This document shows, piece by piece, positions 10,464 to 18,442 of a stretch of 34,936 nt of DNA (its first letter is position 1; the number at the start of each line of letters is the position of its first letter). Source of the stretch: Thermoplasmata archaeon (GTDB lineage Archaea > Thermoplasmatota > Thermoplasmata > Lutacidiplasmatales > UBA184); the NCBI GenBank assembly GCA_021790425.1, contig JAJYEA010000020.1:1-34936 (forward strand), written 5' to 3'. The notes beneath the pieces were generated by a model. It was not told the origin of the DNA, did no database searches, and saw nothing but the letters and a program-made list of their open reading frames with translations. The translations under genes were made by a program, and so were the position numbers.

Positions 10464-11540
10464 TCAGAGCACCACTTGGCTCGCGTCGCCCAGTACGAAT
10501 GAGTGTCCTTTGGGAAGGTGCCGGCGCTCGGTCATCGTGGTTCCGCGCCCCACGATGCTGTCCACGATCCGGAAGGGGACGTCCACGGTGACGTTCTCCA
10601 TCAGGATGCTCCGCTCCACCTCGGCCCGGCGGATCACCGAGCCGTCCCCGATCGAGGTGTACGGCCCGATGTAGGCTCCGGATTCGATCCGCACGTTCTG
10701 GCCCAGGACGACGGGCCCCCGCACCGTGGCCCCGGCGGCGATCTCGCCGCCCGGTCCGAGGGCCACGTGCCCGCTCACGTTCGCTCCGTGGTCGATGCGC
10801 CCCTCGACCCGGAAGAAGGCAGGGGGGCGGGACGCGAGCACGCGTTCGTTCGCCTCCAGGAGGTCGTTCGGCTGCCCGGTGTCCTTCCACCAGCCATCGA
10901 GCTCGATGACCTGCACCTTCCCCGTCCGCTGGTGCAGGGCCCAGATCGCATCGGTGATCTCGAGCTCGCCGCGGGCGGAGGGTTTCAGCGACTCGATGAT
11001 CGGGTGGATGGCGGGGGTGAAGAGGTAGACGCCGATGAGGGCGAGGTTGCTCTTCGGGAGCGCGGGCTTCTCCTCGATGGAGACGATGCGGGACTGCCCG
11101 TCCAGTTCGACCACCCCGTAGTGGCGCGGGTCCTTCACCTTCACCGCCCCGACCACGGCCGTGGCGTCGCCCTGGGCGAAGCGCTGGACGTACGGGGCCG
11201 CGCCGTGCTCGAGCATGTTGTCCCCCAGGTACATCAGGAAGTCGTCCTCGCCGAGGAACTCGCGGGCGCAGAGGACGGCGTGGGCCAGACCTTTGGGGTC
11301 CCCCTGCGAGATGTAGTGCACCCGCACCCCGAAGCGGGAGCCGTCCCCGATCTGCTCCTCGATCCCTTCCTTGATCGGGCCCAGGATGATGGCGACGTCC
11401 CGCACCCCCGCCTCCTTGAGGTGCTCGAGCCCGTAGTAGAGCAGCGGACGGTTCGCGATCGGGAGCATGTGCTTGTTCCCGTTCCATGTCAGCGGGCGCA
11501 GCCGCGTTCCGTGGCCGCCCGCGAGAAGGAGGCCCTTCAT
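10464..11540 (-). CDS. rmlA: Glucose-1-phosphate thymidylyltransferase, long archaeal type
   Basis: A 358-residue sugar nucleotidyltransferase with a C-terminal left-handed beta-helix. The N-terminal loop LLAGGHGTRLRPLT (residues 4-17) and MLPIANRPLLYY, then YLGDNM, IEEKP and LELDGWWKDTGQP-like features (ELDGWWKDTG) match dTTP:glucose-1-phosphate thymidylyltransferases. From about residue 245 on, hexapeptide-like repeats (GANVSGHVALGPGGEIAAGA and following) form the helix. It should make dTDP-glucose for RmlB encoded upstream in the same operon. The ATG at 11540 overlaps the preceding TGA (ATGA); a longer in-frame start nine codons upstream lies in the neighbour and is less likely. Sugar specificity is inferred from the neighbours. 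Confidence 0.88.
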   Translation of the reverse strand: MKGLLLAGGHGTRLRPLTWNGNKHMLPIANRPLLYYGLEHLKEAGVRDVAIILGPIKEGIEEQIGDGSRFGVRVHYISQGDPKGLAHAVLCAREFLGEDDFLMYLGDNMLEHGAAPYVQRFAQGDATAVVGAVKVKDPRHYGVVELDGQSRIVSIEEKPALPKSNLALIGVYLFTPAIHPIIESLKPSARGELEITDAIWALHQRTGKVQVIELDGWWKDTGQPNDLLEANERVLASRPPAFFRVEGRIDHGANVSGHVALGPGGEIAAGATVRGPVVLGQNVRIESGAYIGPYTSIGDGSVIRRAEVERSILMENVTVDVPFRIVDSIVGRGTTMTERRHLPKGHSFVLGDASQVVL

Positions 11541-12130
11541 GGCCGGACCACCTCGACCCTCTCCCACCCGAAGGGAAGGCCGCCGGCCGCCGGGATCGGG
11601 AGCTCCGCGAAGGGGACCCTGCCCTCGTCAGCCGGGTCGTAGAGCCGGGTGGGGTAGTTCTGGAGCAAGAACGGCTCCTGCGACAGGTTCCCGATGCAGT
11701 GGTACACCTGGGGGGGAATGGTCACGAGGTAGGTGGTCGCGTCCTCCTTCTTCCGCGGCCGGGTCGCATTCCAGGTCGGCTCGGCCCCCGCCATCCGCGC
11801 GAGCGTGAACCGGCCCTCCGTCGGACTCCGAGGGCGGGCGTCGTAGAGTGCGAGCACCATCTCCCCGAGGAGGACCACGAACCGGTCCACCTGGTGCTGA
11901 TGGACGTGCCAGCGGTCCGCGTCCCGCATCTGCCCGGGGACCGTGAGCGACAGATAGCTCATCGCGAAGGTGTCCCCCTTCACGGTGGTATCGTCGGACC
12001 GCAGGGTCTCGACGAGGAACCCCCGGGGGTCATGGTGGGCGGTGCGCGGAAGCACGACAACGTCCTGGATCCCGATCTCGGTCGGGGACACCGTGCGGAG
12101 CTTCGGCACCACGATGCCGCCGAAGAACAA
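11537..12130 (-). CDS. rmlC: dTDP-4-dehydrorhamnose 3,5-epimerase-like cupin
   Basis: A cupin-fold protein of up to 197 residues between rmlB- and rmlA-like genes. DPRGFLVETLR near residues 34-44 is the RmlC N-terminal signature, the His-rich RWHVHQHQVDRFVVLLGEM (about 93-111) occupies the catalytic-histidine strand, and a later IPPQVYHCIGNLS resembles the P-x-G-x-x-H strand. RmlC epimerises dTDP-4-keto-6-deoxyglucose at C3 and C5. The catalytic strand differs enough from classical RmlC (HxHQHQ in place of GLHFQ) that a related sugar epimerase or isomerase is possible. The start is uncertain: TTG at 12130 is used here; GTG at 12112 or 12109 would shorten it by 6-7 residues. The stop overlaps rmlA (ATGA). 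Confidence 0.8.
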   Translation of the reverse strand: MFFGGIVVPKLRTVSPTEIGIQDVVVLPRTAHHDPRGFLVETLRSDDTTVKGDTFAMSYLSLTVPGQMRDADRWHVHQHQVDRFVVLLGEMVLALYDARPRSPTEGRFTLARMAGAEPTWNATRPRKKEDATTYLVTIPPQVYHCIGNLSQEPFLLQNYPTRLYDPADEGRVPFAELPIPAAGGLPFGWERVEVVRP

Positions 12131-12139
12131 GGCGAGGGC

Positions 12140-13123
12140 TTAACCGTTGTGGGGACGGACGAGGGGCTCCCACCAGGAGCGGTGCTCCTGGTACCAGGCG
12201 ACCGTGCGGGCGAGCCCCTCGTCGAAGCTCACCTCGGGCTTCCATCCGAGGCTCTCCCGGAGGTGCGAGGGATCGATGGCATAGCGCCGGTCGTGCCCCA
12301 GCCGGTCCGCCACCGGCTCGATGCTCTCGGGCTCGCGGTGCAGCAGGGCGAGCAGCCGGGCGAGCACCTCCCGGTTGGACCGTTCCCCGTCCGCACCGAC
12401 GAGGTAGGTCTGTCCCGGTGTTCCCCGGCGGGCGATCGCGGCGAGCGCCCGCGCGTGATCCTCCACGTGGATCCAGTCCCTCACGTTCGCCCCGTCCCCG
12501 TAGAGGGGCACCTTCTTTCCCTGCAGGAGGCGGGTGATCGCGAGCGGGATGAGCTTCTCCGGGTGCTGGAAGGGTCCGTAGTTGTTCCCGCAGTTGGAGA
12601 TCAGGACCGGAAGGCCGTAGGTGTGATGGTAGGCCCGCGCCAGGTGGTCGGCGGCCGCCTTGCTCGCGGCATACGGGCTTCGCGGGTCGTAGCGGGAGGT
12701 GAGCGTGAACCGGAGCTCGGGATGGTCGAGCGGGAGGCTCCCGAAGACCTCGTCCGTGGAGACGAGGAGGAAGCGCCCCACGTCGTGCTTCCGGGCCCCT
12801 TCGAGGAGCGTCCGGGTCCCGAGCACGTTCGTGGTCAGGAAGGGGGCGGGGTCCGCGAGCGACCGGTCGACGTGCGTCTCGGCCGCGAGGTGGAGCACCA
12901 GGCCGGCTCCGCGGAGGGCGGTGTCCACGACGTCCGGGTCGACGATGTCCCCGAGGACGAACCGGATCTTCCCGGCTTGCTCGAGCGGGGCGAGCGACTC
13001 GCGGTGACCGGCGTAGGTGAGCTTGTCGAGCACCACCAGCTCGTCCTCCGGGTAGGCATCGGACCAGTGGTAGGCGAGGTTCGCCCCGATGAACCCGGCA
13101 CCGCCCGTGAGGATGACCTTCAT
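12140..13123 (-). CDS. rmlB: dTDP-glucose 4,6-dehydratase
   Basis: A 327-residue extended SDR. The NAD-binding TGGAGFIGANL is at residues 6-16, HLAAETHVDRS at about 78-88, STDEVFG at 122-128 and the catalytic Tyr151-x3-Lys155 in SPYAASK, all typical of RmlB. It converts dTDP-glucose to dTDP-4-keto-6-deoxyglucose. It is the first gene of rmlB-rmlC-rmlA, the order in which the products would be used except that rmlA comes last. The ATG at 13123 lies about 26 bases from a TATA-like CTTAACT, so the mRNA is probably leaderless. Nine bases separate its stop from the TTG of rmlC. Confidence 0.93.
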   Translation of the reverse strand: MKVILTGGAGFIGANLAYHWSDAYPEDELVVLDKLTYAGHRESLAPLEQAGKIRFVLGDIVDPDVVDTALRGAGLVLHLAAETHVDRSLADPAPFLTTNVLGTRTLLEGARKHDVGRFLLVSTDEVFGSLPLDHPELRFTLTSRYDPRSPYAASKAAADHLARAYHHTYGLPVLISNCGNNYGPFQHPEKLIPLAITRLLQGKKVPLYGDGANVRDWIHVEDHARALAAIARRGTPGQTYLVGADGERSNREVLARLLALLHREPESIEPVADRLGHDRRYAIDPSHLRESLGWKPEVSFDEGLARTVAWYQEHRSWWEPLVRPHNG

Positions 13124-13184: not shown

Positions 13185-16100
13185 CTACATCGGGGGAGGC
13201 TCGCGGGGAAGTCGCGTGGCGGCTCCCGTCCGGAGATAGATCTCGGCCGCCATCGTGGAGAACCGCTCGGAGGCGTCCACGGTCCCGAACGTCAGCTCCC
13301 ATCGCGAGAGCTCGTCCAGGGAGTGGGCCTCCTCGATCACGTCGCGCACCGTTCGTGCCACCTCGAGGGCCCGCTCGGCGGCCCTCCGGGAGTCGTCGCG
13401 CTCGCCGCGGACCCGCGCGAGCTGCGCCTGCGTCCGGTAGTACGCCGGGACCTCGTGGGGCTTGAGCGTGGCCGCAGGGTCTCGGACGGTCGCGAGCGCG
13501 CTGGCCGCCCCCGGGATGTCCCCGAGGGCGAGGCGCGCGGCGGCCAGGGTGACCTGGTAGCCCGCGATGGGGCCGGTGGCGTTGCTCGCCCGGATCCGCT
13601 GGACCGCGGCCTCGAGCCGCTCGACCGCCCGTTCGGCGTGCCCTTCCGCCAGGTCGATCCGGGCCTCGGGGAGCAGGAAGAGCTCCTCATCGGCCCCCAT
13701 CGCGAACCGCCGGGCCACGGTCCGTCCTTCGTGGATGAAGTCGCGCGCCCGGTCGTACTTCCCCATCAGGATGTAGAGCGAGGCGAGGTCCCAACAGGAG
13801 GTGGCCGTGCCCGTGACGTTCCCGCGGTCGCGCAGGATGCGATGGTAGACGAGCTCGGCTTCCTCGGCCCGTGCGAGCTCCCCGTGATAGACCGCCGTCA
13901 CCGCCTCCAACCCGAGGAAGTAGGCCCGGAATCGGTCGAGGCCGAGGCGCTCCGCGAGCGCCCGCCCCCGGGCGAGGCAGTCCTCGTACGTCGGCTCATC
14001 GTCCAGCTCGCGGGCCGTCCAGCCCGCATCGTAGTACCACCGGTCGATGAGCCACGAGGGCACCGCTCCGCCGACCGCGATCGCGTCCCGGTAGGCGGCG
14101 AGGGCGGAGCGGAGGTGGCCGCGCGAGTACTGGAGGTTGCCCTCGATCGCCCGCTCGAGCGCGTGGAAGAAGGGCGGGATCGCTTCCCCCTGGGCCTCCA
14201 GGTTCTCCCGGAGCTGGTAGATCTGCCGGTGGGCGCCCTCCGGGTCCTCCTGGCTCGCCACGAAGGCGCGGTAGGCGGCGATCGTGGCGTGGGGCCCCGG
14301 GGTCGCCCAGAGGTCCATCAGGAGCTCGAGCATGCGGTCGACCGCCGGGTGGCGTCCCACGATGGAATGGAGACGGAGCGTGTACTCCTGCCCGATCTGG
14401 AGGCGCTCGTCCGTCCCCGTCCGGTCCGTCTCCAGCAGCTCCTGGAGCCAGCGGTGGTAGCGCTCGACGGTCTCCGGTGATGTCTCCGCGATGCCCCGCT
14501 CGATGGCGCGCTTCACCCACGTCGGCCCGTCGTGGACATTGCGCGCCAGGTGGAACAGCCGGGCGACCCGCTCGACGTCCTCCGGGCGATGATGCGCGCT
14601 CCAACGGGCGAGCGTCTCGGCATCGGCTCGGAGCCGGGCCTCGGGGACCTCGGAGAGGAGCGCCTCCCAGACCAGCTGGTGGGCGAAGGACCACCGTCCG
14701 CCCGGCTCCTTCGGGCGCTCGAGCAGCCCGTGCTGTCGCGCCATCCGGTCGAAGGTGGACGTGAGCTCCGGGAGGGGGCGCCCGAGCGCGGCCGCGAGGT
14801 GGGCCGGCTCGAACTCGCTCCCGGCCACGGCGGCGAACTCGAGCAGGCTCCGGTCCTCGGGGGCGAGCATCCGGAGGCGCCGGAGCACGAGGCGCTTCAA
14901 CGTGTCGGGGAGGTGCAGGCCGTCCCCGTCCCCGGAGGAAGGGGGGATCTCGAGGACTGCCTGCCCGCCCCGCAGCGCGAGATGACCGTCAGCCCGCAGC
15001 TGCCGCACGAGCTCGAGCAGGAAGTAGGGGCTCCCTTCCGCCTTGTCGAGCAGCGGGCTCAGGCTCCCCGTTCCCGGGCCGAGCCGGGGGGGTGCTCCCA
15101 GCAGGTGTCCGCAGAGCTCGGCCAGGGAGGTGTCCTCCATCCGTCCCAGCGGGAGGGGGGCGAGCGTGCCCTCGCGGCGCATCGCGTCGAGGGTCTCCTC
15201 GAGCGGAGCATCCCCCGCCTCCGTGACCATCTCCCCCTCCGTCTCGCGCAGGGAGGCCACGATCAGGACGGGAAGCCCCCGGGTGTTCCGGGAGAGGAAC
15301 TGGAATGCCTGGAGGGACTGCGGGTCGGCCCACTGCAGGTCGTCGAGGAAGAGGACCTGGGGGCGCTGACGCGCCCACTTCTCAATCGACTCGAGGTAGC
15401 GGAGCATGACGATGGCGGGGGCTTCCTCGACCCTCACGGGCTCGGCGACCGCCGGGCGGTTCGCGCTCCGGACCTCTCCCTCCCCGTTGAGGAGGGCGAC
15501 CTCGCGCGCCTCGAGGGCCAGGGGGTTGTAGGAGACGAAGAGGAACCCTCCGGTGGCCTCGACCCAGTCCCGGAGGAACTGGACGAGCTTGAGGACCGGT
15601 AGGAACTGGTTCTGGCTGACGAGGTACTCGAGCCCGGAGATGCCCACCACGGCCCCGGGCTTCGACTCGAGGTGACGGCCCGCGAGCTCGGCCATCGTGT
15701 CGAGCGCGGTGGGATTGAGCGTCCCGGGGGCCTCGACCCGCGAGAGCCCGAGCACGCGGGTCTCGGGGCCGAGCCCGGGGAACTTCTGCCGCAGGCCCGC
15801 CTCCCGCTCCCGGGAGATCAGGAGCGTGGGGTGCTCGCGGGAGAGCTCCACGAGGCTCTGGAAGAAGCGGGTGGGCCGTTCCTCCTCGAAGAGGAGGACG
15901 GGAGGGATCTTGGGGCCCCCGTCCGTCGTGTCCGCGGGAGGCCTCCCGTCCGGCTCGGCCTGGCGGAAGATCTGGTAGAAGGGGAAGTAGGCATTGTTCG
16001 CCTCCTTGAGGCAATACCCCCACCGGATGTCGAAGCCTCGTGCCCGGCTCCGGTCCTCGAGCCAGTGGAGGAGCCGGGTCTTCCCGATGCCCGTGGGCCC

Positions 16101-16217
16101 CTGCACCGTCCAGGTGCTGCCATGCCCTGCCACCGCCTGGTCGAGCGCCGCCTCCAAGAGCGTGCGTTCGCGAGCGCGCCCGACGAACGGAGGACCCTGT
16201 GCAACGGCCATCTCCAT
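13185..16217 (-). CDS. Large P-loop ATPase with inserted DUF835 domain and TPR-like tail
   Basis: A 1010-residue AAA/STAND-like protein. Residues 10-60 begin an ATPase domain (FVGRARE, Walker A GPTGIGKT at 40-47). About 106-248 match the archaeal DUF835 pattern (PTLLISRE, GLEYLVSQNQFLPVLKLVQF, then FVSYNPLALEAREV). The ATPase core then resumes with Walker B VLFLDDLQWAD at 288-298 and a sensor-like VLIVASLRETEG. About 430-560 look like a winged-helix or STAND helical region (LKRLVLRRLRMLAPEDRSLL). From about 600 to 990 lie TPR-like helical repeats. Such proteins usually act as nucleotide-dependent regulatory scaffolds. ATG at 16217 has GGAGGGG upstream. It is not coupled to rmlB. The partner or ligand is unknown. 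Confidence 0.85.
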   Translation of the reverse strand: MEMAVAQGPPFVGRARERTLLEAALDQAVAGHGSTWTVQGPTGIGKTRLLHWLEDRSRARGFDIRWGYCLKEANNAYFPFYQIFRQAEPDGRPPADTTDGGPKIPPVLLFEEERPTRFFQSLVELSREHPTLLISREREAGLRQKFPGLGPETRVLGLSRVEAPGTLNPTALDTMAELAGRHLESKPGAVVGISGLEYLVSQNQFLPVLKLVQFLRDWVEATGGFLFVSYNPLALEAREVALLNGEGEVRSANRPAVAEPVRVEEAPAIVMLRYLESIEKWARQRPQVLFLDDLQWADPQSLQAFQFLSRNTRGLPVLIVASLRETEGEMVTEAGDAPLEETLDAMRREGTLAPLPLGRMEDTSLAELCGHLLGAPPRLGPGTGSLSPLLDKAEGSPYFLLELVRQLRADGHLALRGGQAVLEIPPSSGDGDGLHLPDTLKRLVLRRLRMLAPEDRSLLEFAAVAGSEFEPAHLAAALGRPLPELTSTFDRMARQHGLLERPKEPGGRWSFAHQLVWEALLSEVPEARLRADAETLARWSAHHRPEDVERVARLFHLARNVHDGPTWVKRAIERGIAETSPETVERYHRWLQELLETDRTGTDERLQIGQEYTLRLHSIVGRHPAVDRMLELLMDLWATPGPHATIAAYRAFVASQEDPEGAHRQIYQLRENLEAQGEAIPPFFHALERAIEGNLQYSRGHLRSALAAYRDAIAVGGAVPSWLIDRWYYDAGWTARELDDEPTYEDCLARGRALAERLGLDRFRAYFLGLEAVTAVYHGELARAEEAELVYHRILRDRGNVTGTATSCWDLASLYILMGKYDRARDFIHEGRTVARRFAMGADEELFLLPEARIDLAEGHAERAVERLEAAVQRIRASNATGPIAGYQVTLAAARLALGDIPGAASALATVRDPAATLKPHEVPAYYRTQAQLARVRGERDDSRRAAERALEVARTVRDVIEEAHSLDELSRWELTFGTVDASERFSTMAAEIYLRTGAATRLPREPPPM

Positions 16218-16243
16218 CCAGCCCCTCCCAAGGCGAGCACTCG

Positions 16244-16329: not shown

Positions 16330-16650
16330 CTAGTGCGCGGGAACGGCCGCGGCGGGCCGCCGGGTCCCGGTCTCGTCCCCCGCTTCTCCGGTCTCCGTCT
16401 CCCGCTCCTCGAGGGGGACCGGTGATGTCGCATCGTCCCGGCCCAGGCTCACGTTCGGTTCGCGCCCCCGGACGAGGGACCACCCTCCGCGGAGCACCGC
16501 CTCGATCCGTCCCCGGCTCCGCCCTCCGGGGAACCCCTCGTCCGTCTCCGGGGATGCCCGGCGGTACTCGTCGCCCAGGTACTGTGCGAGCTCTCGGTCG
16601 ACCCGTTTCCGGGGGACGCCCAACTCCTCGCCGTCCCATCCTCTCGCCAT
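16330..16650 (-). CDS. Hypothetical protein, 106 residues
   Basis: A 106-residue polar protein. The N-terminal 45 residues look structured (GVPRKRVDRELAQYLGDEYR, an amphipathic helix); the rest is rich in Gly, Arg, Glu and Thr and probably disordered, with an acidic patch (PLEERETETGEAGDETG). No family is recognised. The gene is preceded by the most AT-rich stretch of this region (16682-16735), which supplies good promoter candidates, the main reason to accept it. It lies 112 bases upstream of the large ATPase gene on the same strand. Confidence 0.5.
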   Translation of the reverse strand: MARGWDGEELGVPRKRVDRELAQYLGDEYRRASPETDEGFPGGRSRGRIEAVLRGGWSLVRGREPNVSLGRDDATSPVPLEERETETGEAGDETGTRRPAAAVPAH

Positions 16651-17440: not shown

Positions 17441-18442
17441 ATGGCAGAGCCCTCGTCCTCTCCTCGCGTTCTCGTGCTCGGCGCCACGTCGCTCGTGGGC
17501 AGCCACTTCGTGGTCTACGGGGGGAGCGGCCCGGTCCTCGTGGCGGGCCGGCAGGACCCCCGGCGCCGGGGGTTTCCCGTGGAGGGGTTCACCCGGGTCG
17601 ACCTCGGTGACGAGGAGGCCGTCCGGAAGCTCGTGCGCACCACGGAGGCGACGGCGGTGGTCAACTTCGTGGCCCGGACCGACGTCGACGGGTGCGAGTC
17701 GGAACGGCCCCGGAGGGGGGATCGGCCCGCCCACCCGGACCGGGGGAGCGCCTGGGTGCTCAACTCGGAGCTGCCGCGATGGCTCGCGGAGGAATCCGCG
17801 TCCCGGGACCTCTTCCTCCTGCACCTCTCGACCGACTTCGTCTTCGACGGAAAGGCGGGCCCCTACTCCGAGGAGGAACCGCCCTCGCCGCTCGGCCCGG
17901 GCCTGGGATGGTACGGCTACACCAAGGGGGTGGGCGAGTCGCCCGTCGCCGGACTGGCCCGGAAGGGGAAGGCGGCCATCGTCCGGATCTCGTACCCCTA
18001 CCGGAGCGGCTTCGAGGGGAAGCTGGACCTCGCACGAGGCCTGCTGATGCGCCTCGCGAGCGGCACGCTCCTCCCGATGTACACCGACCAGGAGATCACG
18101 CCCACGTGGGTCCCCGACGTCACCGACACGCTCTCGGCCCTCCTCGTCGCCCGGCGCGGGGGGATCTATCACGTGGCCTCCCCGACGGTGACCACCCCCT
18201 ACGGGTTCGCCGAGGCGCTCATCGAGGAGATCGGCGTCGGGAAGGGCGATCTCACGGGCGCCCGCCTGCAGGACGTCCAGGACCCCCACAGGGCCCCCCG
18301 GCCCTTGCACGGCGGGCTCCGCCTCCACAACGTGCGGCGCCTCGGGGTCCGGCCGACGGATTACCGCGAGGGGATCCGGAAGCTCGTGGCCGAGCTCGGC
18401 GCTACGCCCCGAAGGGCAGGGTTCCCGGCTTCTCCACCGTGA
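17441..18442 (+). CDS. rmlD: dTDP-4-dehydrorhamnose reductase-like SDR
   Basis: A 333-residue extended SDR resembling RmlD, which reduces the C4 keto group of dTDP-4-keto-L-rhamnose with NAD(P)H. The N-terminal VLGATSLVGSH is at 12-22, followed by an RmlD-like region VVNFVARTDVDGCE, STDFVFDGKAGPY at 130-142 and a catalytic Tyr158-x3-Lys162 (YGYTK). It has an odd Arg/Pro-rich insertion at about 88-104 (ERPRRGDRPAHPDRG). The rest of the rml set lies 4 kb away on the other strand, which supports this function if the final sugar is a deoxyhexose. The last 41 bases overlap a convergent gene. The C-terminal residues after about 320 look poorly conserved. Confidence 0.78.
   Translation: MAEPSSSPRVLVLGATSLVGSHFVVYGGSGPVLVAGRQDPRRRGFPVEGFTRVDLGDEEAVRKLVRTTEATAVVNFVARTDVDGCESERPRRGDRPAHPDRGSAWVLNSELPRWLAEESASRDLFLLHLSTDFVFDGKAGPYSEEEPPSPLGPGLGWYGYTKGVGESPVAGLARKGKAAIVRISYPYRSGFEGKLDLARGLLMRLASGTLLPMYTDQEITPTWVPDVTDTLSALLVARRGGIYHVASPTVTTPYGFAEALIEEIGVGKGDLTGARLQDVQDPHRAPRPLHGGLRLHNVRRLGVRPTDYREGIRKLVAELGATPRRAGFPASPP

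Follow-up and report, generated by a model that had tools for sequence, protein, structure and literature searches.

A DUF835 domain nested within a predicted STAND ATPase of a thermoplasmatal archaeon

The gene and its nested domain

The stretch of DNA analyzed here, henceforth the window, is a contig of 34,936 nucleotides (C29; JAJYEA010000020.1) from the 2.5-Mb genome of an uncultured thermoplasmatal acid-mine archaeon. Its minus strand carries a gene, spanning positions 16217 to 13185 (ATG at 16217, stop codon at 13185-13187), that encodes a protein of 1010 amino acids in which a DUF835 domain lies inside the nucleotide-binding domain (NBD) of a putative signal transduction ATPase with numerous domains (STAND). 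A purine-rich sequence, GGGAGGGG, read as the probable ribosome-binding site, occupies positions 16222-16229 of the same strand, with the ATG 4 nt downstream. All parts of the gene described below are on the minus strand. The AAA_16 match and the AlphaFold secondary structure delimit an initial NBD segment (residues 10-77, positions 15987-16190), with strand 1, the P-loop, helix 1 and strand 2; it includes the Walker A motif GPTGIGKT (residues 40-47, 16077-16100). The DUF835 domain is found at residues 106-251 (15465-15902), between an N-terminal linker (residues 88-105, 15903-15956) and a C-terminal linker (residues 252-262, 15432-15464). Next come helix H2 and the Walker B strand (residues 263-298, 15324-15431), where the sequence and the alignment place the Walker B motif VLFLDDLQWAD at residues 288-298 (15324-15356). 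The initial annotation had given both Walker motifs these positions, with a DUF835 domain between them and a tetratricopeptide repeat (TPR) tail behind, and the anatomy that it proposed is borne out.

Pfam analysis detects DUF835 (PF05763) at residues 124-244 (15486-15848) with E=1e-18 and 67.9 bits, the gathering cut-off being 33.1; the excised insert on its own scores 73.3 bits. The AAA_16 profile matches residues 10-133 (E=1.4e-16, above its cut-off) and resumes past the DUF835 match, at C29:15258-15443, covering Walker B. In paralogues from the same genome, one AAA_16 match (profile positions 2-166 of 167) is stretched over about 310 residues, with DUF835 within it. Run on the insert plus 19 relatives, AlphaFold returned a mean predicted local distance difference test score (pLDDT) of 94.4 and a predicted TM-score (pTM) of 0.88. 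In the model of residues 1-525, DUF835 appears as a separate domain and not as part of an ordinary core, flanked by segments with pLDDT below 50 (residues 88-102 and 254-261); the pTM of this model is 0.59, and the orientation of the domain relative to the core is not fixed by it.

A survey of homologues found the same nested order in 37 distinct proteins, seven of them from the genome of the window (six besides the gene under study). Nearly all named relatives come from Thermoplasmata metagenome-assembled genomes, a few being labelled just 'bacterium'. All 36 relatives with an N-half have it followed by DUF835 and then by the Walker-B half, and both DUF835 and AAA_16 were matched in every member scanned (34/34). 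Walker A and Walker B are 243-269 residues apart in proteins with the insert and 88-135 in those without it; at the insertion site itself, 18-65 residues are found in homologues from the same genus and family that lack the insert, versus 168-199 in the nested proteins. The insert-less proteins L093-L099 align to residues 9-105 and about 255-1000 in a single open frame, with a short stretch between, and constitute a natural 'empty site'. As homologues of the same family carry only this short stretch, we conclude that the insertion is real, and it is practically certain that the architecture is that of a DUF835 domain nested in a STAND ATPase. The insert-less homologues, together with the separate, linker-flanked predicted domain, exclude that residues 106-248 are ordinary ATPase core.

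The host switch and the site of the insert

When the model of residues 1-525 was searched with Foldseek, matches were obtained with CED-4 (E=5.5e-8), APAF1 (3.6e-6) and PH0952 (6mfv, 3.3e-5), as well as with Cdc6 and plant NLRs. The matches to CED-4, APAF1 and PH0952 and the invariant columns delimit the remainder of the nucleotide-binding oligomerization domain with the predicted helical (HD) and winged-helix (WHD) domains, at residues 299-525 (14643-15323). The P-loop of the core is intact in the 36 nested relatives with an N-half (36/36), Walker B has an acidic pair (hhhhDD), the strict pattern D[DN]xxW occurs in 32/37, and the GxP residues G395 and P397 do not vary. Residues 526-1010 (13188-14642) would form an arm and a TPR-like sensor region; the TPR_12 and TPR_MalT matches are weak in this protein and stronger in its relatives, where Pfam detects the former in 30/34 and the latter in 25/34. 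On account of the model matches, the kept Walker motifs, the invariant GxP and the TPR-like tail, the host is predicted to be a STAND-class switch ATPase with an NBD-HD-WHD core, an arm and a TPR sensor. The sequence profile of the insert-less NBD did not reach 6MFV.

An effector domain at one end of the protein is a usual, non-strict feature of STANDs (PMC6468293). No terminal effector was detected by Pfam in this protein, nor by a winged helix-turn-helix (wHTH) profile in its nested relatives; the feature being merely usual, this does not affect the STAND assignment. The C-terminal DNA-binding helix-turn-helix (HTH) of LuxR/MalT-type (LAL) regulators was likewise not found here by Pfam, nor was a C-terminal wHTH in the relatives. 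The archaeal STAND PH0952 (Pyrococcus horikoshii, PDB 6MFV) resembles the host in having an NBD-HD-WHD core followed by an arm and a TPR sensor, and the ISM position between strand 2 and H2 would be common to both; unlike PH0952, the protein described here has a 146-residue DUF835 domain at that site and no detected terminal effector. The maltose regulator MalT of E. coli, also a STAND, shares the switch core and the TPR-type sensor, and TPR_MalT is matched in the relatives, but in MalT the DNA-binding domain is at the C-terminus and the ISM carries no domain insertion.

In PH0952, strand 2 is separated from helix H2 by the two helices ISM and ISMb; the former is stacked against the arm, and the latter wedges into the TPR sensor (PMC6468293). 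In MalT, M96T and H102Y in ISMb are activating substitutions, and in STANDs with a TPR sensor it is the TPR itself that binds the inducer (PMC6468293). In the AlphaFold model of our protein, the elements follow each other as strand 63-68, helix 78-87 (15957-15986; the ISM position as defined in PMC6468293), DUF835 106-251, helix 267-284 and Walker B strand 287-292. As this order equals the S2 - ISM - ISMb - H2 order of PH0952, the insert very probably occupies the ISMb position of the predicted structure. By position, the autoinhibitory residues M96 and H102 of MalT would fall where DUF835 is inserted here.

A Foldseek search of the insert against the PDB had FlaH as the top match (4yds, E=6.2e-6, TMq 0.66, 11% identity), and further matches were with PH0250, RecA (9uoo, 7.7e-4), CobU, Rad51-type proteins and KaiC (4o0m, 4e-3); the sequence profile of the insert (A3) gave nothing useful against PDB sequences. 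The best structural likenesses, FlaH (an ATPase-fold regulator of the archaellum, of the KaiC family) and KaiC, bind ATP via a P-loop, whereas the insert is without it: the pattern GxxxxGK[ST] is found in none of the 37 nested copies. An aspartate at the Walker B position is present in 1/37 nested copies versus 14/18 free-standing DUF835 domains of the class (Fisher p ~1e-8, a descriptive value, the sequences being related); free copies mostly keep this residue, and the nested ones have lost that too. Without a P-loop, and with the Walker B aspartate almost entirely gone, the insert is no obvious candidate for a nucleotide sensor. Within it, the segment EYLxxQNxFxPVLRLxQFLR shows good conservation, and E162 (37/37), R216 (37/37) and D173 (36/37) of the nested copies are residues not shared with free DUF835. 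PMC5847659 counts DUF835, under the name 'iKaiC' for a KaiC-like domain that has been inactivated, among the REC-associated (output) domains of archaea; the iKaiC proteins belong to the same Pfam family (PF05763), matched here over threshold, and have a dead KaiC-type fold. In REC-DUF835 proteins, and in most free copies examined, DUF835 is C-terminal, whereas here it lies inside another ATPase. Sequence and model together indicate that DUF835 is in this case a catalytically dead domain of RecA/KaiC type within a live STAND ATPase.

The genome of the window has three other DUF835 copies, of the usual C-terminal kind. Among its free DUF835 proteins, L019 (L019:6129-7004, plus strand) has an N-terminal hydrophobic, membrane-like segment, and L017 (L017:2386-4467, minus strand) has an N-terminal zinc-ribbon-like motif.

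Distribution and history of the insertion

In the DUF835 tree the nested domains group together, split from the free copies by a branch with 100/100 support. In a larger tree the long-branched free copy L019 falls among them, and monophyly of the nested domains is not rejected (approximately unbiased test, p-AU 0.258). In the tree of the ATPase cores, nested and insert-less proteins are intermingled, with at least 6 label changes, 2 of which are forced by well-supported branches. As the nested DUF835 domains stay together yet the cores interleave, the trees suggest loss or exchange of the insert after one gain; a single clean gain followed by vertical descent is too simple.

In a sample of 300 genomes of the class, nested matches were confined to the genera g1, g3 and g5 of the window's family, and among 390 sampled genomes of the phylum one outside the family, G366, has two; with 5-6 candidates scored per genome, these figures are lower bounds. 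The nested DUF835 STANDs of G366, which belongs to another class of the phylum, are located at L197:3056-6046 (minus strand) and G366:C129:48207-49259, and the L197 region has a guanine-plus-cytosine content of 41%. The branch of the L197 DUF835 domain is long, and since this domain groups with free copies, DUF835 probably entered this site independently a second time. The nesting of DUF835 in a STAND is not described in the available portion of PMC5847659. One member of the window's family, G021, has 28 DUF835 matches, many of them in frames of about 1000 amino acids, whereas most genomes of the family outside g1 and g3 have 1-4; DUF835 has undergone a strong lineage-specific expansion in G021.

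In STANDs of this type from order- and class-mates, the corresponding place between the ISM position and Walker B is taken by a different stretch of about 140 residues. The 19 examples come from other thermoplasmatal families (L145-L152, L155-L157, L159-L164, L166 and L167; e.g., L145:2292-2771). Pfam matched this second insert weakly to Robl_LC7 (E 0.014) and longin (E 0.088), neither over the cut-off, and its profile (A4) gave nothing useful against PDB sequences; by eye it looks roadblock/longin-like.

Possible roles of the nested domain

No DNA-binding domain was detected in the nested proteins: a terminal wHTH was seen in 0 of 37, versus 14 of the 23 insert-less members of the same family, being C-terminal in 10 of the latter (MarR/Crp-like) and N-terminal in 4. 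Another insert-less protein, the thermoplasmatal STAND-type L144 (L144:1483-5547, minus strand), has an adenylate/guanylate cyclase catalytic domain preceding its AAA_16 core, and in the other 8 no winged helix was detected. The C-terminal wHTH profile had no match in the nested set (0/37), and the 25 commonest of the 32 Pfam families found in 34 of these proteins include no HTH family. This pattern suggests, short of proof, that DUF835 took over the output role.

We favor, with a little less than even confidence, a reading drawn from the STANDs described above in which DUF835 would be a nested output or docking module rather than a ligand-controlled gate of hydrolysis. As in MalT and PH0952, pressure of the arm and the TPR sensor on the ISM tip would keep the resting, ADP-bound form closed. 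Binding of an inducer to the TPR region would open the core, with ATP replacing ADP, and the opened protein would assemble into a hub. Located on the clamped tip, DUF835 would be inaccessible or restrained as long as the protein is closed; in the open form it would be presented and might recruit a partner, another DUF835 or a KaiC-like protein, as the output that replaces the winged helix of the insert-less homologues. The initial annotation had supposed that the insert could sense a ligand and gate ATP hydrolysis. This functional part of its proposal is less well supported than the anatomy: as the insert is at the ISM/ISMb tip and not at the catalytic site, an effect on the closed/open lock or a docking role fits better than direct gating.

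Several points weigh against an output role. Eight of the 23 insert-less family members lack both DUF835 and a detected wHTH, and insert-less STANDs of other thermoplasmatal families are likewise without wHTH; because such proteins exist, DUF835 cannot be taken for the output on the lack of a wHTH alone. The sequences compared are related, so the counts are not independent. REC-associated domains can be inputs, according to PMC5847659. The putative ISMb assignment comes from the order of secondary structure and not from superposition, and the 525-residue model (pTM 0.59) leaves the orientation of the domain unfixed. A strict rule by which every protein would have either the insert or a wHTH, and never neither, was considered and is ruled out by the several insert-less members that have neither.

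It is distinctly possible, although somewhat less likely than an output role, that DUF835 is instead an input, that is, a ligand- or partner-binding domain at ISMb that would strengthen or release the closed state, the ATPase integrating TPR and DUF835 signals. ISM/ISMb is the site of NBD-sensor autoinhibition in PH0952 and MalT (PMC6468293), the roadblock-like insert of other families is at the same site, as expected for a regulatory slot, and the strict conservation of E162, R216 and D173 in nested copies only would agree with such a role. However, no ligand of DUF835 is known, its nucleotide motifs are lost, and the nested proteins yielded neither a winged helix nor any other output domain. 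An input role is the nearest defensible form of the model in the initial annotation. A further reading, which we consider unlikely, gives DUF835 a largely structural role: with no signal or partner of its own, it would determine the form of the oligomeric hub, either by offering a homotypic (RecA-like) assembly surface or by acting as a size spacer. RecA/KaiC folds form rings, the domain has retained this fold in spite of its lost catalysis, and the insert, apparently lost several times, is dispensable for the core; the strong conservation of the EYLxxQNxFxPVLRLxQFLR segment across many paralogues that have diverged elsewhere nevertheless suggests a specific surface. A chance match, or an ordinary ATPase core at these residues, is vanishingly improbable in view of the Pfam score over the curated cut-off, the separate and confident fold, the insert-less homologues of the same family and the monophyly of the nested domains.

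Returning to an output or docking module, the free DUF835 proteins L019 and L017 of the same genome are possible partners of the nested domains. The initial annotation had named as candidates the rml operon and a small upstream protein. Downstream of the STAND gene and on the same strand are rmlA, rmlC and rmlB (10464-13123, minus strand), the rmlC-like protein being barely above the Pfam dTDP_sugar_isom cut-off; upstream, on the opposite strand, are rmlD (17441-18442, plus strand) and an AAA_33 gene. The upstream open reading frame for 106 amino acids (16330-16650, minus strand) is matched by no Pfam family, has no counterpart next to the closest relatives and may not be a gene. None of these or the other neighbours is found beside the three closest relatives of the STAND gene. 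Since no neighbour is conserved there, the rml operon and the small open reading frame are unsupported as partners, and neighbour genes in general were rejected as such.

STAND proteins such as APAF1, the NLR immune receptors and MalT are described with an effector at one end of the chain, whereas here a folded extra domain is predicted at the off-lock position. The layout is unusual, and the insert-less paralogues in sister genomes are ready controls. For the STANDs of Thermoplasmatota we propose, with some reservation and at less than even confidence, that ISM/ISMb may be a plug-in slot that swaps DUF835, with two or more independent insertions, for a roadblock-like domain, the inserted domain acting as an effector or a second input that replaces the end effector. 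The architecture makes testable both the role of DUF835, a widespread archaeal domain, and the rewiring of a STAND at its ISM tip by domain insertion.
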